A stretch of 64,000 bases of DNA. Source: Halobacteria archaeon AArc-dxtr1. Lineage in GTDB: Archaea; Halobacteriota; Halobacteria; Halobacteriales; Natrialbaceae. A program made the position numbers and the translations under genes. Under the pieces are notes generated by a model. The model was not told the DNA's origin and ran no database searches. It was given only the letters and a program-made list of their open reading frames with translations. Positions 28,719 through 38,536 of this stretch are shown piece after piece; position 1 is the stretch's first letter; the number at the start of each line of letters is the position of its first letter. The stretch lies in the NCBI GenBank assembly GCA_025517425.1, contig JAOPJY010000002.1, positions 248,001 to 312,000 of the forward strand, written 5' to 3'.

Positions 28719-30044
28719 TCATCCCAGTGTCGCCACCGAGATCACGAGCAACGCACAGACGACTGCGCCGGCCAGCGTCGCCAGGAAGTTGACGCCCTGA
28801 TTGCCGAGGAAAGATCCTTCGAGCGTCGCCCCGAGGAGGCTGTCGACGAGCATCCCGGTGACGCCGGCCGCCACGATGACGAGCGCACCGATCGCGGTGA
28901 CCTCCTCGAAGAACGAGACGGCGATGATGGCGACGACTGTCGCACCAACGAGGCCCGCGAGAGATCCCTGCCAGGTGATTCCGCCGTCGGTCCCGGGTTC
29001 GACCGGCTCTAACGTGGTTATCAGCCGCGGCTCGTCGAAGACGCTCCCGATCTCGCTCGAGAGCGTGTCGCTCATCGCGGTCGCGACCGAGCCTGCGAAG
29101 GCAAAGAGGAACAGCTCGGGTGCGCCAGGGAGCATCCCCGCCGAACTGGCTTCGTAGCCGAGGACGGCGGCGATCGCCACCGCGGCGTTACCGAGGACGT
29201 TTCCGCTGCCGCGAGCACCGTCGTTTTGCTCGGCGACGCCGCGGGATGCCTTCTCGTCGTACCGGAACTTCGTTGAGAGGCCGCCGATGGCGAAAAACGA
29301 GATCAAGACGACGAACCAGCTGTAGCCCCCGAGGACGATCGTGAGCAGGCCGAGCAAGACGCCGGTGAGCATCCCCGCAATCGAGGCGGTCTCGAGCGCA
29401 TAGGAGGCGTACCCAAGCAAAACGGTGACCGCGAGCGCAACGAGTAACTCGACGGTCCCGATAACCGGTTCGAGCTCGGCGAGCAACCAGAGCAGTAAGC
29501 CGACCGAGAGCATCACCACCGGATCGTCGTACAGAAAGAGGACGTCGCGCAACAGTGCGGCGAGTAACGCCCCACTGGCCGCGAGGAAGAGGGCGATCGG
29601 AAGCGCGTCCGTGAGGCCGTCACCGACGATCCAGAGCGTGGTGAGCTGGCCGACGACGGCGGCGACGGTGCCAACGATGCAAAATGCGACGACCGATCGA
29701 ACGCCGTGTTCGATTCGGATCCGGACCAGCTGCTCGGCAACGTTGCCGAAGCCGACCAGAAAGACCGCGCCGACGAAGATGGCGACCGGCACGGAGAGTA
29801 CCTCGGTGAGTAGCCCAAACGCGCCGAGTGCGAGAACGAACGTGATCAACCCATAGAGGCGCTCGTCCTCGTAGTCCTCCGGATAGGCGAGGAGATCGAA
29901 CAGCGGGCCATCGGTAATCGAGAGCGCCCCGAGGACGACGACCGCTGCCAGCGCCGCGGCGACCAGCGGGCCAAACAGTGGAAGGACGAGCGAGAGCGTA
30001 CAGAGCGCAGCGAAGATCCCTGCTCGTCGAACGGGAGCCGTCAC
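28719..30044 (-). CDS. DUF92 family membrane protein
   Basis: A 441-residue protein starting at GTG 30044 (reads VTAPVRRAGIFAAL) with about thirteen membrane segments. The C-terminal half holds the DUF92/TMEM19 core (SSAGMLPGAPELFLFAFAGS, then TAMSDTLSSEIGSVF, then PGTDGGITWQGSLAG). The N-terminal half resembles the dolichol/phytol kinase and CDP-diglyceride-like membrane domain often fused in haloarchaea. In plants a DUF92 protein phosphorylates phytyl phosphate; whether this one acts on an isoprenoid phosphate is inferred only. It lies 2 kb from the cis-prenyltransferase genes, which makes an isoprenoid role attractive. Confidence 0.85.
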   Translation of the reverse strand: MTAPVRRAGIFAALCTLSLVLPLFGPLVAAALAAVVVLGALSITDGPLFDLLAYPEDYEDERLYGLITFVLALGAFGLLTEVLSVPVAIFVGAVFLVGFGNVAEQLVRIRIEHGVRSVVAFCIVGTVAAVVGQLTTLWIVGDGLTDALPIALFLAASGALLAALLRDVLFLYDDPVVMLSVGLLLWLLAELEPVIGTVELLVALAVTVLLGYASYALETASIAGMLTGVLLGLLTIVLGGYSWFVVLISFFAIGGLSTKFRYDEKASRGVAEQNDGARGSGNVLGNAAVAIAAVLGYEASSAGMLPGAPELFLFAFAGSVATAMSDTLSSEIGSVFDEPRLITTLEPVEPGTDGGITWQGSLAGLVGATVVAIIAVSFFEEVTAIGALVIVAAGVTGMLVDSLLGATLEGSFLGNQGVNFLATLAGAVVCALLVISVATLG

Positions 30045-30282: not shown

Positions 30283-32034
30283 TCAGTCGGCCCGCAGGAG
30301 CGTCACCGTGATCTCGTTGCCACCGGCTGCGTGCTCTGAGACCGTGACCGAGCCGCCAGCCATGGTGACGAGCCACTGGACGAGCCATAGGCCCAGTCCG
30401 CTCCCGTGCTGGAGCGCGGTCTCCTCTCTCCCGAGCAGCGTGGTCTTCTCCTGGTCGGTCAGTAGCGGGCCGGAATCGATCACAGACACGCGAACAATCG
30501 GCCGGTCGGTGCCGTCGGGACGCCGCTGGGTGTCCAAGTCCGCGGTGACGGTCGCCGACGGCGACGGGTGATCGGCGTGTTTGACGGCGTTCTCGAGGAG
30601 TTCCTCAAAGACGACCTGGAGTGCGTCCGGTCCGAGCACGCGGACGTCGGCCGGGACGTCCGTCGTAATCTCGGCGTTCGGATACGAATCCGATACGGAC
30701 GTGGCCGCCGTCTCACAGAGGGTAGTAAGCCCCACCGAGGTGGTCGTCTCCACTCGAACGCGTTCGAGCAGGGTGTCGGTGTCGCGGACCCGATCAGAGG
30801 CCCGAAGGAGGCTCCCTCCGTGTTCGAAAATCGGGGCCAGCTGCGCCGTATCGAGCTCGGTCGTCTCCGCAAGGTGGACGGCCTGTCCGAGGATGACGTT
30901 CATGCTGTTGCGGAGGTTGTGACGCAACAGGCGCTGGAACATCTCCGCTCGTTGCCGTTCTTCTACGTGGGTCGTTACGTCCTGTTGGAAGCCGATGAAG
31001 TGCGTCAGCGAGCCGTTTACGTCGAACACCGGGGTGACCTGGAGGCGGTTCCAGAAGGGCGTGCCGTTTTTCCGGTAGTTGATGAGTTCGACCGTGACCG
31101 GCTCACGGCGATCGATCGCCCGTCGAAGTTTCGAAACGGTGTCTGGATCGGTCTGAATCCCCTGGAGAAACCGGCAGTTCCGCCCGAGGGCCTCCGCCCC
31201 CGAGTACCCTGTGAGTGCTTCGAACCCCTGGTTGACGTAGATGATCGGATTATCGGATTGGTGGGGATCGGTAATGATGATCCCCAGGTCTGCCACGTCC
31301 ACTGCCTGAGAGAGAAGGATCTCGTCGGTGATATCGCCGAAGTAGACCGAGAGACCGTCGCCAGACGGATAGGCGGTGACGTGGAACCACGTTTCGAGCG
31401 GTTCGTGATAGAACTCGAACTCGCTGGTCGTGCCAGTCTCTACGGCGGTGGTGTACTTCTCGTAGAGGATGGTATCGGTCGTCTCGGGGAACGCGTTCCA
31501 GACGTTGCACCCAATCAGGTCTGCCGCGGATTTCTGTAGCAGCGTCTCAGCATACTCGTTTACCGAGGTAAACTGCCAGTCGGAATCGAGCGCGTAGAAT
31601 CCGTCCGTCATCCGGCTGAGGCTGGTCCGTTCCGGGGAGTCGTCTAAGAAGAACTGGTCCCCGCGGAGACACTGGACGAGCGTCGTAATTCGATCGCGGA
31701 CCTGCTCCGGTGCGTCGGCGCGTTGCATCTGTACGACCGTCGTCGGATGGGGTGCTCGGTCGGCGTCGCCGAGCGTGTACTCACCGTCAGAGAGAAAGAC
31801 CGTGGGGAGAAGTGGGTCTCGGGTCTGCGTTCGATCGAGTAGCGTCTCGGCGTCCATGTCGGGCAGATCGCGACCGAACAGGAGGACGTCGACGTCGGCG
31901 CGATCGAGCAACGCGAGCGTTTCCGCGCCCGTTCGGGCAGTGAGGACGTCGAACTCGGATTGAGATTCGAGATAGTGTATTAGATCTTCGTCATAGGAGG
32001 GGTCAGAGGCAAACAGGAGAGTGAGCGAGATCAT
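30283..32034 (-). CDS. LOV-domain histidine kinase with pseudo-receiver
   Basis: A 583-residue soluble kinase: receiver-like domain (1-125), PAS domain (about 137-245), LOV-type PAS domain (about 250-355), histidine-containing helix pair with RLLRHNLRNSMNVILG (H372) and an HATPase C-terminus with ENAVKHADHP (N box) and HGSGLGLWLVQW (G box). The LOV signature is complete: GRNCRFLQG (Cys287 should form the flavin adduct), NYRKNGTPFWN and FIGFQQDVT. So this is a probable blue-light sensor. The receiver reads LLFGRDLPD where a phosphoacceptor Asp is expected, giving Gly54, so it is likely not phosphorylated. No response regulator is adjacent. Confidence 0.92.
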   Translation of the reverse strand: MISLTLLFASDPSYDEDLIHYLESQSEFDVLTARTGAETLALLDRADVDVLLFGRDLPDMDAETLLDRTQTRDPLLPTVFLSDGEYTLGDADRAPHPTTVVQMQRADAPEQVRDRITTLVQCLRGDQFFLDDSPERTSLSRMTDGFYALDSDWQFTSVNEYAETLLQKSAADLIGCNVWNAFPETTDTILYEKYTTAVETGTTSEFEFYHEPLETWFHVTAYPSGDGLSVYFGDITDEILLSQAVDVADLGIIITDPHQSDNPIIYVNQGFEALTGYSGAEALGRNCRFLQGIQTDPDTVSKLRRAIDRREPVTVELINYRKNGTPFWNRLQVTPVFDVNGSLTHFIGFQQDVTTHVEERQRAEMFQRLLRHNLRNSMNVILGQAVHLAETTELDTAQLAPIFEHGGSLLRASDRVRDTDTLLERVRVETTTSVGLTTLCETAATSVSDSYPNAEITTDVPADVRVLGPDALQVVFEELLENAVKHADHPSPSATVTADLDTQRRPDGTDRPIVRVSVIDSGPLLTDQEKTTLLGREETALQHGSGLGLWLVQWLVTMAGGSVTVSEHAAGGNEITVTLLRAD

Positions 32035-32274: not shown

Positions 32275-32880
32275 GTGGGACTGTACGAACGGTACCTGGC
32301 GTATCAGATTCGCCGACACGAGGGGGACACCCCCGATCACGTTGCCCTGGTCCTTACGGAACGGGATCTACTCGAGGACGGGGCCTACGAGACGCTCACG
32401 AGGTGTTTCGAGTGGGCCTTCGAGTACGCCTCGCGAGTGACGGTGTACGTAAGCGTCTTAGACGCCGCGGCCGTCCCGGCACTGCGCGAGGAGCTCGAGA
32501 CAGTCGAGACCCCCCGAGAGGTGGCGGTCCGCGGCCCGGAAGATCGGACGCCGGCAGATGCGCCGATCCAGATCGGCATCGGACTCGGCGGGAAACACGA
32601 GTTTACGAGTGCCGTCAGAACGCTGTCCGAACGCGTCGAATCGGGCGATCTCGAGCCCGGAGAGATCGAAACTGAGCATGTCGAGGACAATCTCGTCTTT
32701 CCCGACGAACCCGACCTCGTGATCAAGACCGGTGCCGAACGCCTCTCGGATTTCATGATCTGGCAATCGGTCTACTCGGAGCTGTACTTCACCGACGTCA
32801 ACTGGCGCGACCTTCGGAAACGTGACTTCCTGCGCGCCGTCCGAGAGTTTTGCAACCGTTCGCGTCGGTTCGGGCAGTAG
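32275..32880 (+). CDS. Cis-prenyltransferase-like protein lacking the catalytic motif
   Basis: A 201-residue UppS-family protein starting at GTG 32275 (reads VGLYERYLAYQIRRHEGDTP). The C-terminal half is a good family match (DLVIKTGAERLSDFMIWQ, then SVYSELYFTDVNWRDLRKRD). The N-terminal half keeps the strand HVALVL but then reads TERDLL where active enzymes have the pyrophosphate-binding MDGN or QDGNRR motif; the catalytic Asp is Thr. It is shorter than a normal UppS (about 250). This is the pattern of Nus1/NgBR-type partner subunits. The complete homologue is at 33839-34771, one kilobase away on the other strand. Confidence 0.82.
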   Translation: MGLYERYLAYQIRRHEGDTPDHVALVLTERDLLEDGAYETLTRCFEWAFEYASRVTVYVSVLDAAAVPALREELETVETPREVAVRGPEDRTPADAPIQIGIGLGGKHEFTSAVRTLSERVESGDLEPGEIETEHVEDNLVFPDEPDLVIKTGAERLSDFMIWQSVYSELYFTDVNWRDLRKRDFLRAVREFCNRSRRFGQ

Positions 32881-32921
32881 CTGGCTGTTCGAGACCGGCG
32901 ATGGCTGCGGTACGCAGCCGA

Positions 32922-33143
32922 CTACGCGCCGTCGGCTGGAATCTCGACGAACGACCGAAACGTGACGACGACGCCGACGGCGAGGGCGACGACGCTGCCA
33001 GTGATCGCGATCACGTCGAGCGCCGCGTACGTCTCGGCCGCCTCGGCCGGGTGGCGAAGGACGCCGCCTAAAGCGAGTACCACGAGTCCGACGAGTCCGA
33101 GAGTCGTCAGGCCGAGTCCGACCGCGAGGAGCTGCCGGTTCAT
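32922..33143 (-). CDS. Small two-span membrane protein
   Basis: A 73-residue protein beginning MNRQLLAVGLGLTTLGLVGL, with membrane helices at about 5-28 and 43-63 separated by a short His/Ala/Glu-containing loop. The pattern is common among unnamed haloarchaeal proteins and codon use fits the genome. It lies between the two cis-prenyltransferase homologues on the strand of the catalytic one, though a lipoprotein gene intervenes. No function can be assigned. Confidence 0.65.
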   Translation of the reverse strand: MNRQLLAVGLGLTTLGLVGLVVLALGGVLRHPAEAAETYAALDVIAITGSVVALAVGVVVTFRSFVEIPADGA

Positions 33144-33256
33144 TCGAGAGTGCTATTTCGAGGGCGGTCGGTTGAGCGTTTCGGCTGTGGACGCGCTCAG
33201 TCGGAGGTGACGGAGAGTTCGCGTAGCGCAGCGCCAAGAAACGTCAGTGTCCCTCC

Positions 33257-33772
33257 TCAGAAGTCGTCGGCGTACTCCTCTAAGTCGCTTAGCTCTTCGA
33301 TCGTCGTGACGAGGATCGCCTCCTCGACCTCATCCGAGCCGAGGAAGACGAGGATGTGCTCGTCGTCAGGGTCGTCGACGTCGATCGTCTCCTCAGTGCC
33401 CTCTTCGCCGTCGATCGAGTCGCCGTCATCCAGTTCGACGTGGACGGTATACTCACCGGCATCGGTGAAGACCTCGTCGTAGATCGCCTGTGCGTCCTCG
33501 TCACCGTCGTCGTCGCCGGCTTCTAAGTCGAACGTCTCGTCGAGGACGCGCTCGCCTGCCGGATCCGTTACCTCGATCGTTCCAGCGACGGGCTCGTCAG
33601 CGCCGTTGATCACGTTGACGTCGTCCAGAACGAGCCCGGCGAGAAAGTCGACGACAGTCGAACAGCCCGCAAGGGCTGCGGTCGCCAGGCCGGCACTGGT
33701 CGCCAGAACGCGTCGGCGTGAGAGCGACGGGGTGATCGATGTCGGGGACATGTTAGCAGGGTTGGGTGTCAT
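33257..33772 (-). CDS. Tat lipoprotein, function unknown
   Basis: A 171-residue exported protein. The N-terminus has a twin-arginine signal (SLSRRRVLATSAGLATAAL) and lipobox LAGC, predicting a lipid-anchored surface protein. The mature part is highly acidic, with a likely Ig-like or CARDB-like beta fold (GTIEVTDPAGERVLDETFDL, then AGEYTVHVELDDGDS) and an acidic tail. Start is ATG 33772 or ATG 33751; the latter also keeps the signal. It is located just downstream of the catalytic cis-prenyltransferase on the same strand, with 66 bases between. Confidence 0.78.
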   Translation of the reverse strand: MTPNPANMSPTSITPSLSRRRVLATSAGLATAALAGCSTVVDFLAGLVLDDVNVINGADEPVAGTIEVTDPAGERVLDETFDLEAGDDDGDEDAQAIYDEVFTDAGEYTVHVELDDGDSIDGEEGTEETIDVDDPDDEHILVFLGSDEVEEAILVTTIEELSDLEEYADDF

Positions 33773-33838
33773 CGTCGACTCGAGTTTGGATTCCACTGAC
33801 AAAAGAGTCCCGGGCGGAGTTTCCAGCTGAGAAAGTCA

Positions 33839-34771
33839 CTAATCGGCGGCCTGTCCGCTCGCATCGGGCGCCTCGACGTCCTCTGCGTCCGGTCGTTCGG
33901 AAATCGGCAGCGAGTCTCGAAAGCGGGCGACGGTCGAGCGTGCCTCGACAAGTTCGACGTCGCCGAGAGCACCCAGAAGCGCCAGTGCCCGTCTGGCACG
34001 GGTACGTCGCCAGGATGCCTCGCGGTGTTCGTAGGTTCGAATCCCGCGCAGGAAGTCGGCCTTCGAAAACTCCGGCCAGTAGGGCGTACAGAAGAAGACA
34101 GCGGCCTCGTTGCCGTTTGCGTGCCACGGCAGGAAGTTCGAGGTGCGCTCGTCGCCGCCGGTTCGGATGATCAGATCGACGTCACGGACGGGGCTATCGT
34201 AGAGCTGAGATTCGATCCGGTCGACGTCGATCTCCCCCGGATCTAGCTCGCCGGCGTCGACCTCCGTGGCGACGTTTCGGGCGGCACAGAGTAGCTCCGA
34301 GCGACCGCCATAGGCCAGCGCGACGTTCAACACGAACTGGTCGTAGGCTTCGGTTCGCGACTCGGCGTACTCGACAGCGTCGCGGACGCGTTCGGGCAGC
34401 AAAGAGACGTCGCCGAGCGCGCGGATACAGACCTCGTTGTCGTGGACGCGGTCGGCGTCGGCGAACGACCGAAGCTTCTCACAGAGGAGGTCAAAGAGTG
34501 CCTCGTTTTGCTCGTCCGGGCGGTCGAAGTTCTCCGTCGAGAAGGTGTACAGGGTGAGCTCCTCGACGCCGACGTCCTGGCACCATTCGAGGACGCGCTC
34601 GGTCGTCTCCGCGCCGGCTCGGTGGCCGTCCGGTGCGTCCTCGCCTTGCTTGCGAGCGTACCGACGGTTCCCGTCCTGAATCACGGCGACGTGAGTCGGT
34701 GCGCCGGAGAGCTCCCGAGAGAGCATACGCTCGTACACCCAGTCCACACGCCGGCGGAGCCACCGCTTCAT
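33839..34771 (-). CDS. uppS: Cis-prenyltransferase (UppS family), catalytic
   Basis: A 310-residue enzyme making long-chain cis-polyprenyl diphosphate for the lipid carriers of protein and surface glycosylation. The pyrophosphate-binding motif is HVAVIQDGNRRYARKQG (catalytic Asp at about residue 35), followed by TLYTFSTENFDRP and the C-terminal IIRTGGDERTSNFLPWHAN. About 50 residues at the C-terminus, basic then acidic, go beyond the usual length. The gene precedes the lipoprotein on the same strand. A second, catalytically degenerate homologue at 32275 suggests a two-subunit enzyme, as reported for Methanosarcina and eukaryotes. Confidence 0.93.
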   Translation of the reverse strand: MKRWLRRRVDWVYERMLSRELSGAPTHVAVIQDGNRRYARKQGEDAPDGHRAGAETTERVLEWCQDVGVEELTLYTFSTENFDRPDEQNEALFDLLCEKLRSFADADRVHDNEVCIRALGDVSLLPERVRDAVEYAESRTEAYDQFVLNVALAYGGRSELLCAARNVATEVDAGELDPGEIDVDRIESQLYDSPVRDVDLIIRTGGDERTSNFLPWHANGNEAAVFFCTPYWPEFSKADFLRGIRTYEHREASWRRTRARRALALLGALGDVELVEARSTVARFRDSLPISERPDAEDVEAPDASGQAAD

Positions 34772-34877: not shown

Positions 34878-35282
34878 ATGGAAGACGCTATCGATACGGA
34901 TCTCTACGAGCGGACGAAGGCCTTGCTCGAGCCCGGCGAGATCGAGTTGAACGGCGCCATCGTCCACACGCCCTACGGCGGTAGCGAGGACGTCCAGATG
35001 ATGCAGGCGACGATCGATGTCGGCGACATCATCGCCGAGCACTCGGGCTACGATTCGACGGACTGCTACGTTCACTCCGGCAACGACGACCCCGACTTCT
35101 CCTCGAATCAACACCAGGGGCTGAGCTTAGAAGACGAGTCGTTCGTCTGGGAGTGCCAGCAGCTGCTGCGAAACGGGACGTTCGAAATCGTGATCTACTA
35201 CGAGGCGAGCGCAGACCACGAGGCGATTCTGGCGGACATCCGTGAGCTGGGCTACGACGTGACCGGCGTCGAAGGGGAGTAG
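34878..35282 (+). CDS. DUF5778 family protein
   Basis: A 134-residue acidic soluble protein starting MEDAIDTDLYERTKALLEPG. The blocks IELNGAIVHTPYGGSEDVQM and DCYVHSGNDDPDFSSNQHQG are characteristic of a haloarchaeal family I recall as DUF5778. It is predicted to be alpha/beta and has no catalytic motif. It starts about 100 bases from the divergent UppS gene; the frame upstream to 34800 is excluded because it does not fit. It may be transcribed with, but does not overlap, the following heme genes, which have their own TATA box. Confidence 0.78.
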   Translation: MEDAIDTDLYERTKALLEPGEIELNGAIVHTPYGGSEDVQMMQATIDVGDIIAEHSGYDSTDCYVHSGNDDPDFSSNQHQGLSLEDESFVWECQQLLRNGTFEIVIYYEASADHEAILADIRELGYDVTGVEGE

Positions 35283-35319
35283 CCGGCGAGCAACTGGCCA
35301 ACAGGGCTCGCCCGAGGCG

Positions 35320-35328
35320 CTTATACAT
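35320..35328 (+). promoter_or_regulatory. TATA box of the heme operon
   Basis: The sequence cttatacat lies about 25 bases before ATG 35349, giving a near-leaderless start for the three-gene heme operon. Confidence 0.6.
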
Positions 35329-35348
35329 CGTCAGTCGAAGAGTCACGT

Positions 35349-36479
35349 ATGAGTACGGACGCCGACCTCACAGACCGCGAGCGGGGGGTCATCAACGCCT
35401 TTCAGGGGGGATTTCCAGTTACGGAACGCCCGTTCGAGGACGCCGCGACGGCGATGACGGCCGCAGGGGTCGAGATCGACGCGGACGAACTGCTCGAGAC
35501 GATCCGCGAGTTAGACGACCGGGGCGTCCTCTCGCGGTTCGGCCCGCTCGTCAACGCTGCCGAGATCGGCGGCGCGGCGACACTGGTCGCCATGCACGCG
35601 CCCGACAACCGGTTCGACGAGGTCGTCGAGGCGGTCAACGCCCATCGTGAGGTTGCGCACAACTACGAGCGCGAGCACCCACATCTGAACGTCTGGTTCG
35701 TCGTGAGCGTCGCCGAGGAGCAGCGAGTCGCAGCGGTGCTGGCCGAAATCGAAGCCGAAACGGGCCAGGAGACGTACAATCTGCCAAAGCAACAGGAGTT
35801 CCGCGTCGAGGCGAAGTTCTACGTCGACGGGCCGCTCGCTCCGCCGGAGTCGGGCGAGCCGGGCGGCGTCGACTGTTCGGACCAAGGACCAGACGTTTGC
35901 GACGACGAGCTGGAGGAACGGGAGAGTTCGACGACGCTTTCGCCGGGCGAGCGAGACCTCGTCCTCGAAATTCAGGACGGGCTCCCGCTCACTGACACGC
36001 CGTATGCGGACGTCGCCGCGGCGATCGGCCGCGACCCCGCGTGGGTCCGCGAGACAATCAAACGGTTCGATCGCACGGGGAAGATCCGCCGGATCGGCGT
36101 CGTCCCGAACCACTACGCGCTGGGCTATACGGAGAACGGAATGACGGTCTGGAACGTCCCCGACGAGGTCGTCGCCGAAGTGGGTCCCGAGGTGGCCGCG
36201 CTCCCGTTCGTCACTCACTGCTACGAACGCCCCCGCCACGAGGGCGTCTGGCCGTACAACTTCTTCGCGATGACCCACGGGCGAAGCAAGGAAGAGAGCG
36301 AGCAGCGCATCGAGCAGGTCCGCGAGACGATGGCAGCCCACTGGGACGTGGGCGCTGACGACTGGGACTCGCTGTTCTCGACCCAGATATTGAAGAAGAC
36401 CGGTATCAGGCTCGCTGAGCGCGCCGACGCCAATACGGAATCCGAACAGCACACCGACTCGCCGACAGACTCCGCCTAA
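35349..36479 (+). CDS. ahbB: Fused siroheme decarboxylase (AhbA/AhbB-type)
   Basis: A 376-residue protein with two Lrp/AsnC-type halves. Half one (about 8-165) begins DRERGVINAFQGGFPVTERP and contains SRFGPLVNAAEIGG; half two (about 205-350) begins GERDLVLEIQDGLPLTDTPY and contains RRIGVVPNHYALGY and FVTHCYERPRHEGVWPYN. Each half has a winged helix and a RAM-like domain, as in siroheme decarboxylase subunits that are usually separate AhbA and AhbB chains. The enzyme converts siroheme to didecarboxysiroheme in the archaeal heme pathway. An acidic linker (about 168-200) joins the halves. It is first of three genes; three bases separate it from sirC. Confidence 0.9.
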   Translation: MSTDADLTDRERGVINAFQGGFPVTERPFEDAATAMTAAGVEIDADELLETIRELDDRGVLSRFGPLVNAAEIGGAATLVAMHAPDNRFDEVVEAVNAHREVAHNYEREHPHLNVWFVVSVAEEQRVAAVLAEIEAETGQETYNLPKQQEFRVEAKFYVDGPLAPPESGEPGGVDCSDQGPDVCDDELEERESSTTLSPGERDLVLEIQDGLPLTDTPYADVAAAIGRDPAWVRETIKRFDRTGKIRRIGVVPNHYALGYTENGMTVWNVPDEVVAEVGPEVAALPFVTHCYERPRHEGVWPYNFFAMTHGRSKEESEQRIEQVRETMAAHWDVGADDWDSLFSTQILKKTGIRLAERADANTESEQHTDSPTDSA

Positions 36480-36482
36480 CGC

Positions 36483-37154
36483 ATGATCCCTCTGCTTCAC
36501 GACTTCTCCGCGTCGACGGTGCTCGTCTTCGGCGGCGGCCCCGTCGGCGCGCGGAAGGCCCGCCGGTTCGCCCGCGAGGCGCGCGTCGTGGTCGTCAGCC
36601 CGGCCTTTGCCAACGAATCGTTCGAGTCAGAGGGAACAGGCGAGACGGAACTCCTCCGGGCAGCTCCCGCACCCGAAGAGGTCGGCGACTGGCTCGACCG
36701 GTTCGAGCCCGCGCTGGTCGTCGCCGCAACTGACGACGAATCCGTTAACGACGCGGTGGTGGCTGCAGCGCGCGATCGAGGAACGCTGGTCAACCGCGCG
36801 GATCGCGCTGGCGAACGCGAGCCGGGAAGCGTCGTCGTGCCGGCGACGGTTCGCGAGGGCGACGTCGTCGTCTCGATCTCGACGAGTGGAACCGCACCAG
36901 TCCTGAGCAAACATCTCCGAACGGAGCTAGACGCGGAGCTCGCGGGGGCCGGCGAGATGGCGACGGCGCTCGCTGCGCTTCGAACTCGTCTCAAAGAACT
37001 GGACGTTCCACCCGACCGCCGGCGCCAGATAGTCACTGACACCGTCAATTCTCCGTCCGTTTGGACAGCTTTACGTACGGGAGCCCCGAACACGGAGCAA
37101 GTGATCGAGGACGTGCTGGAGGAGCACCGAAACGCCGGAGGTGAGCTGCAGTGA
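36483..37154 (+). CDS. sirC: Precorrin-2 dehydrogenase / sirohydrochlorin ferrochelatase (SirC/CysG N-domain)
   Basis: A 223-residue protein with an NAD-binding start TVLVFGGGPVGARKARRFA, then LVVAATDDESVNDAVVAAA and the SISTSGTAPVLSKHLR block of the CysG/Met8 N-terminal family. It oxidises precorrin-2 to sirohydrochlorin, and in some members inserts iron, supplying siroheme to the preceding decarboxylase. The gene lies three bases after the siroheme decarboxylase and overlaps hemA by four bases, a tight operon. Length is typical. Confidence 0.93.
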   Translation: MIPLLHDFSASTVLVFGGGPVGARKARRFAREARVVVVSPAFANESFESEGTGETELLRAAPAPEEVGDWLDRFEPALVVAATDDESVNDAVVAAARDRGTLVNRADRAGEREPGSVVVPATVREGDVVVSISTSGTAPVLSKHLRTELDAELAGAGEMATALAALRTRLKELDVPPDRRRQIVTDTVNSPSVWTALRTGAPNTEQVIEDVLEEHRNAGGELQ

Positions 37155-38536
37155 CCGCAGGCGGACTGGTGACGAGTGCCCGCGTGACCCACGAGCGCGC
37201 CGACGTCGACCAGCTTGCAGCCGCGAGTCCGTCCAGCCAGCGCGCCGGCGTCGCCGGTCTGCTGGCCCGACCGGGGGTTTCCGAGGCGTTCGTCCTCTCG
37301 ACGTGCAACCGTGTCGAAGCGTACGTCGTCGCCGAGGACGGCGCGGTCGGCCGCGCCGCCATGGAGGGATTTTTCGCGTCGGTCGACGACGAGGCGGTCG
37401 TCGTGGCCGACCACGATGAGAGTATCACGCACCTGCTGCAGGTCGCTTGCGGGCTCGAATCGGTCGTCATCGGCGAGGATCAGATCATCGGCCAGGTCCG
37501 GCGAGCGTACGAGGACGCCCGGACCACCGGCGGGATCGGGTCGTTGCTCGAGATGGCCGTCACCAAAGCGATTCACGTCGGCGAGCGTGCCCGCACCGAG
37601 ACGGCGATCAACGAGGGTATCGTCTCGCTGGGCTCGGCGGCGACCCGGCTGGCAGGGCGTGAGATCGATCTGACCGACGCGACGGCGCTCGTGGTCGGCG
37701 CCGGCGAGATGGGACAGCTCGCTGCCCGCGCTGTGGCCGCAACGGAGACCGCTGAGGTCGTCGTCGCCAACCGGACGGTCGCTCACGCCGAACACGTCGT
37801 TCGCGACATCGACGACGAGGTGACCGCCAGCGCTGCCCCACTAACTGCGGTCGGGACGATCGCCCGGCGGGCGGACGTCATCATGACCGCGACTGGAAGC
37901 GACGAGCCGGTACTCGAGACACACCACCTCGACGAGGACGGCAGCGAGCAGGTCGTCGTCGATCTCGGCCAGCCCCGAGACGTCGCGCCGGGCGTGGCAG
38001 ACGTCACGGACGTCTCGGTGTACGATCTCGACGATCTCGAGTCGGTAACGACCCGAACTCGCGAGCAGCGCGCGGCGGCCGCCCGGGAGGTCGAGGTACT
38101 GATCGATCGGGAAGTTGACAACCTCCACGATCAGTACAAACGCGCCCAGGCCGACGACGTGATCGCAACGATGTACGAGTCCGCAGAGCAGATCAAGCGC
38201 CGCGAGCTCGAGACCGCCAAAGCACGGTTAGCCGAGAGCGAAGGGAGCGTCGACGAGTGGGAGATCATCGAGTCGATGGCCGACGCGCTGGTCGGCCAGT
38301 TGCTCGCGCCGCCGACCCAGAGCCTGCGAGAGGCGGCTGCCCAGGACGACTGGGAGACGATCTACACCGCACTCCGACTCTTCGATCCCGGGCTCGACGA
38401 TGGCCCGCCATCTGCGATGCAGTCTCCGTGGGAGACGGGACAGCGAACCACCGGTGGCGATCTACACGGCATCGGCACAGCCCGATTCGACGCGAGCCGG
38501 CTCGGCGAGGCCAGCGGTATCACTGACGACGACTGA
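37151..38536 (+). CDS. hemA: Glutamyl-tRNA reductase
   Basis: A 461-residue enzyme reducing glutamyl-tRNA to glutamate-1-semialdehyde, the first step of tetrapyrrole synthesis. The catalytic cysteine lies in LSTCNRVEAYV (Cys52), the signature GLESVVIGEDQIIGQVR follows, and the NADPH-binding motif LVVGAGEMGQLAARA and dimerisation helices come after. Start is GTG 37151, overlapping the sirC stop (GTGA). The last 60 residues are a Gly/Asp-rich haloarchaeal extension. HemL (GSA aminotransferase) and HemB are not in the window. Confidence 0.96.
   Translation: MTAGGLVTSARVTHERADVDQLAAASPSSQRAGVAGLLARPGVSEAFVLSTCNRVEAYVVAEDGAVGRAAMEGFFASVDDEAVVVADHDESITHLLQVACGLESVVIGEDQIIGQVRRAYEDARTTGGIGSLLEMAVTKAIHVGERARTETAINEGIVSLGSAATRLAGREIDLTDATALVVGAGEMGQLAARAVAATETAEVVVANRTVAHAEHVVRDIDDEVTASAAPLTAVGTIARRADVIMTATGSDEPVLETHHLDEDGSEQVVVDLGQPRDVAPGVADVTDVSVYDLDDLESVTTRTREQRAAAAREVEVLIDREVDNLHDQYKRAQADDVIATMYESAEQIKRRELETAKARLAESEGSVDEWEIIESMADALVGQLLAPPTQSLREAAAQDDWETIYTALRLFDPGLDDGPPSAMQSPWETGQRTTGGDLHGIGTARFDASRLGEASGITDDD

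Follow-up and report, generated by a model that had tools for sequence, protein, structure and literature searches.

Organization of the cis-prenyltransferase locus

The window, by which we mean the whole stretch of 64,000 nucleotides analyzed from Halobacteria archaeon AArc-dxtr1, contains two genes of the cis-prenyltransferase family (PF01255), here called S (short) and L (large). The genome (2.8 Mb, 98.8% complete) holds exactly one S, one L and no further PF01255 protein. The features of the locus are as follows:

28719..30044, minus strand: DUF92 membrane protein (PF01940, E 1.8e-59), a conserved neighbor that adjoins S in most loci
32275..32880, plus strand: S, putative non-catalytic NgBR/Nus1-like subunit of 201 aa (PF01255), with orthologues in 242 Halobacteria genomes; catalytic residues gone, RxG kept
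32356..32367, plus strand: S T28-E29-R30-D31, degenerate counterpart of E. coli UppS D26-G-N-G in the alignment with E. coli ispU
32866..32877, plus strand: S C-terminal R198-F-G200-Q201, the RxG plus one terminal residue, the same end as human NgBR R290-L-G-K293 (PMC7573591)
33839..34771, minus strand: L, putative catalytic DHDDS-like subunit of 310 aa (PF01255, TIGR00055)
33842..34006, minus strand: C-terminal extension of L past the core, a predicted helix-turn-helix followed by a disordered tail (AlphaFold2 helices 237-270 and 275-287)
34007..34015, minus strand: L S253-W-R255, opposite E. coli R242-F-G244, where the RxG is lost
34661..34675, minus strand: L D33-G-N-R-R37, the catalytic pyrophosphate-binding motif

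A preliminary description of this DNA gave the positions of both genes correctly. S and L are not in tandem but convergent, with a 181-aa ORF between them. The same orientation is found in 51 of 53 co-located S/L pairs, many of which are separated by gaps of less than 100 bases. The reading in the preliminary description withstands its own test, conservation of S near uppS: S is conserved across the Halobacteria, and S/L pairs in convergent orientation are found again in deep branches of the phylum. S and L lie far apart in several haloarchaea, and in genome G194 an additional S and an additional L adjoin each other and are read in one direction. S usually has the gene for the DUF92 protein at its side, also where L has been relocated, and this holds in several families outside Halobacteria as well. 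A published study links DUF92 to uppS and suggests for DUF92 a kinase-like role in the metabolism of isoprenoids (PMC5898192).

Several other genes were noted at the locus. The 181-aa ORF (33257-33802, minus strand) is lipoprotein-like, with a twin-Arg-like start and a lipobox (RRRVLATSAGLATAALAGC), and is unrelated to S and L; it has the look of a local insertion, since a tblastn search of related loci found no match to it. A PAS-PAS histidine kinase gene (30283-32034, minus strand) is inserted between the DUF92 gene and S, which are direct neighbors in most relatives. Past L, at 34878-38536 (plus strand), are genes also found there in many relatives: DUF5778, an AhbB-like regulator/decarboxylase, a siroheme synthase-like gene and hemA, whose identities, DUF5778 excepted, were read from the sequence.

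Residues lost and kept in S

S is translated from a GTG start at 32275 to a stop at 32878-32880, and orthologues of 201-202 aa start at the same position. The PF01255 match covers residues 96-200 (E 3.9e-24, 85.9 bits against a curated cutoff of 27), in agreement with the C-terminal cis-prenyltransferase fold first ascribed to this protein, while S scores above the cutoff of none of the NCBI equivalog models. Identity across 55 haloarchaeal orthologues is 34-82%, indicating that S is not a chance reading frame. Two other explanations were rejected. S is not an ordinary uppS with a misplaced start, since orthologues share the start and the motif that is missing falls inside the protein, and it is not a decaying pseudogene, since it is conserved across all genera sampled.

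We aligned 92 S and 86 L proteins, drawn from Halobacteria and from further families in the phylum, with E. coli IspU (MG1655 record) as the reference. T28 of S aligns with the catalytic D26 of E. coli, so that the Asp-to-Thr change reported in the preliminary description is borne out, and most S orthologues likewise have Thr at this position. The positions of E. coli R30 and R77 are occupied by Arg in 0/92 S. In all, S lacks the equivalents of D26, N28, R30, N74 and R77, and the intervening stretch is shortened. Part of the C-terminal diphosphate-binding segment is retained, with R200 and S202 equivalents in most S and the E213 equivalent in all.

The C-terminus of S is conserved to the residue. 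At the register of E. coli R242-x-G244, 91 of the 92 S proteins have RxG and one has KxG, and all 91 end exactly one residue after the Gly. Outside Halobacteria, every S terminus read was RFGx, RYGx or a near variant.

The AlphaFold2 model of S (mean pLDDT 83) has the cis-prenyltransferase fold and matches UppS and DHDDS chains; NgBR chains were absent from its best 50 fold matches. The last residues are of low confidence, which would fit ordering of the tail by a partner without showing it. Ahead of the first strand of the enzyme fold is one short amphipathic-type helix, and the 201-aa protein has no N-terminal membrane segment of the Nus1/NgBR type, a difference from human NgBR.

Variants of S were also seen. 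S of genus g27 (L133-L135, L160 and similar loci) has ~15-30 extra residues inserted ahead of its C-terminal half, and in this genus S and L are not neighbors. An S orthologue of the Methanosarcina family (G418:C1:2055464-2056111) contains one in-frame TAG, possibly a pyrrolysine codon or an error. In a search of a plasmid collection with S, the matches listed were bacterial UppS, none covering 80% of S, and no archaeal S was among them.

Motifs of L and the distribution of the pair

L, whose 310 aa are encoded at 33842-34771, is matched by PF01255 over its full length (residues 31-252, E 5.7e-67, 225.9 bits; cutoff 27) and scores above the cutoff of TIGR00055, the NCBI uppS model. Together with D33-GNRR, this substantiates the complete enzyme that had been placed here. 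The equivalents of E. coli D26, G27, N28, R30, S71, N74, R77, R194, R200 and S202 are identical in 86/86 L. In contrast to this invariance, an in-register RxG is found in 0/86 L, and an R.G near the site but out of register occurs in only two. Thus the losses are complementary: the catalytic residues are gone from S and the in-register RxG is gone from L. Retention of RxG in S with its loss from L is the most telling feature of the pair, and one which the preliminary description did not mention. E80, N81 and R84 of L, the residues which an NgBR-like tail would touch, are invariant among L proteins.

In the AlphaFold2 model of L (pLDDT 78), the core is followed by a C-terminal helix-turn-helix. 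Human DHDDS accounts for each of the first eight PDB matches to the model, above every bacterial enzyme, a ranking that is aided by the longer alignment. The L profile likewise extends past the core in DHDDS (to profile position 289) and not in bacterial enzymes. The extension is missing from the L of several other families, including the Archaeoglobus-like family, and is therefore not a general feature of the L type.

The S query matched 242 of 242 Halobacteria genomes sampled, spanning 74 genera. Because this query also matches L weakly, low scorers were re-examined, and all four (G217, G020, G183 and G235) do have S: in the first two it is divergent, in G183 its frame is broken and in G235 it is split over contig ends. 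Across the phylum, the S profile matched 288 of 295 genomes. Six of these are single low matches, all in genomes less than 90% complete, that may represent L only, leaving S in about 282 of the 295. Both genes are present in 39 of the 42 phylum genomes examined in detail. The other three, from family f18 (G248, G257 and G266, the last 91% complete), yielded no PF01255 protein, and this family may use another carrier lipid route. S and L therefore co-occur in essentially all Halobacteria examined and in nearly all of the phylum, the exceptions being one 120-contig assembly in which L was not found, incomplete genomes, and the one family without any cis-prenyltransferase.

In a phylogenetic tree of sampled sequences, which included neither eukaryotes nor Asgard archaea, S forms one clade (support 0.99) and L forms another with a support of only 0.55; the deep order is not settled. 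As separate clades, S and L appear to have split before the sampled diversity arose. Several genomes besides G194 have extra L copies and one S. G225, for example, has three L and one S (loci L149, L150 and L280-L282 cover G194 and G225), and all of these L carry DGNRR. Since some genomes have two or three L and a single S, not every L need have a partner of its own.

A proposed two-subunit enzyme and its relatives

From the motif partition, together with the co-occurrence and gene order of S and L, we consider it very likely that S and L together form one heteromeric cis-prenyltransferase that works like DHDDS/NgBR, with the S tail completing the L active site. In the human enzyme DHDDS/NgBR (Rer2/Nus1 in yeast), a catalytic subunit without RxG is likewise paired with an inactive subunit ending in RxG-x, and the split between S and L resembles this division of labor, S appearing to contribute the final part of the active site. 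In such an enzyme, L would bind the allylic diphosphate and IPP through its DGNRR loop, STEN-R segment and RTGGxxRxSN segment, and would elongate the chain in the Z configuration. S, having the same fold without a catalytic site, would dimerize with L and extend its C-terminal R-F-G-x tail across the interface to reach the active site of L, in the manner of the NgBR tail in human DHDDS. There, R290-L291-G292-K293 of NgBR enters the DHDDS active site, the backbone nitrogens of L291 and G292 hold phosphate, and the carboxylate of K293 contacts R37 and R85 (PMC7573591). The RxG alone is no proof of this mechanism, since yeast Nus1 is functional without a canonical RxG (PMC7573591). The product would be a long polyprenyl diphosphate, leading to a dolichol-type phosphate carrier for N-glycosylation and S-layer sugars. 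We infer this carrier from knowledge of the family and from an STT3/AglB (oligosaccharyltransferase) homologue found in this genome.

The complementary losses likewise support the proposal, made in the preliminary description, that a partner system is present in this haloarchaeon. A two-subunit system is not in itself a new kind of enzyme. According to the passage of PMC8131916 that cites Emi 2019, MM_0618/MM_1083 of M. mazei, a member of the same phylum, is heteromeric with C45-50 products that are likely glycosyl carrier lipids; the mention of a heteromeric Methanosarcina enzyme in the preliminary description thus agrees with that passage. What this analysis adds is the partition of motifs between S and L, the precise end of S, and the extent of the pair across the phylum; our literature search found no paper on the haloarchaeal S/L pair.

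S and L of the types described here, with the motifs divided between them in the same way, are also present in Methanosarcina (the named genomes compared are of species other than M. mazei). In this genus one S and one L are often accompanied by an MM_0014-like third copy, whereas the haloarchaeon has two copies only. The S and L genes of Methanosarcina are far apart, those of the haloarchaeon close and convergent. In a closed Methanosarcina genome of 4,142,816 bases (G490), the third copy lies 770 kb from L, and L lies 552 kb from S. This spacing fits the M. mazei locus-tag order 0014, 0618, 1083, and on this basis MM_0618 probably corresponds to L and MM_1083 to S, an assignment that uses our own estimate of gene density. 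Archaeoglobus fulgidus reportedly also has a heteromeric cis-prenyltransferase, Af1219/Af0707. The genomes in our set that we take to be Archaeoglobus-like have one S and one L each.

Could L instead act alone, as an active homodimer of the bacterial kind, with S as a regulatory or stabilizing paralogue that plays no part in completing the active site? Every catalytic residue is present in L, L copies outnumber S in some genomes, and human DHDDS by itself has weak activity (PMC7573591). However, homodimeric UppS of bacteria, which shares the fold and family of S and L, has both the catalytic motif and RxG on one polypeptide in E. coli IspU, whereas in the haloarchaeon these are split across two proteins. 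The absence of an in-register RxG from all 86 L, its retention at the exact C-terminus of 91 of 92 S, and the M. mazei pair as described in PMC8131916 together make a self-sufficient L improbable. It is harder still to credit S as an enzyme in its own right, such as a prenyltransferase that makes short chains at an unusual active site. The partly kept diphosphate-binding segment in its C-terminal half would suit such a role, but the loss of five catalytic residue equivalents and the shortening of the stretch between them argue strongly against it.

Whether the heteromer of S and L shares its origin with the eukaryotic enzyme is a separate question. The S profile matches NgBR over its full length and co-terminally (E about 1e-7), but the scores do not bear out a closer relationship of S to NgBR than to other cis-prenyltransferases: the S profile gives 107 bits against E. 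coli UppS and 35 bits against NgBR, and the L profile gives 39 bits against NgBR. With NgBR scoring no better against the S profile than against the L profile, the inactive subunits are not shown to share an ancestor, and convergence is at least as likely. Descent of archaeal S/L and eukaryotic NgBR/DHDDS from one ancestral two-subunit enzyme is thus not favored by the profile scores, and we regard it as unlikely. If it were true, the design of the eukaryotic dolichol synthase would have been inherited from archaea and not separately invented.

The proposed S/L heteromer has consequences for how these genes are read. Family models label both S and L merely as uppS-type, and L expressed alone may give a result that is misread as L being inactive. 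From the exact C-terminus of S comes a prediction at the level of one residue, related to the R290H disease change of human NgBR, and the genetically tractable Haloferax volcanii is suited to a direct test. More broadly, our reading predicts that the sugar-carrier lipid is made by a two-subunit enzyme in haloarchaea and almost throughout the phylum as sampled.
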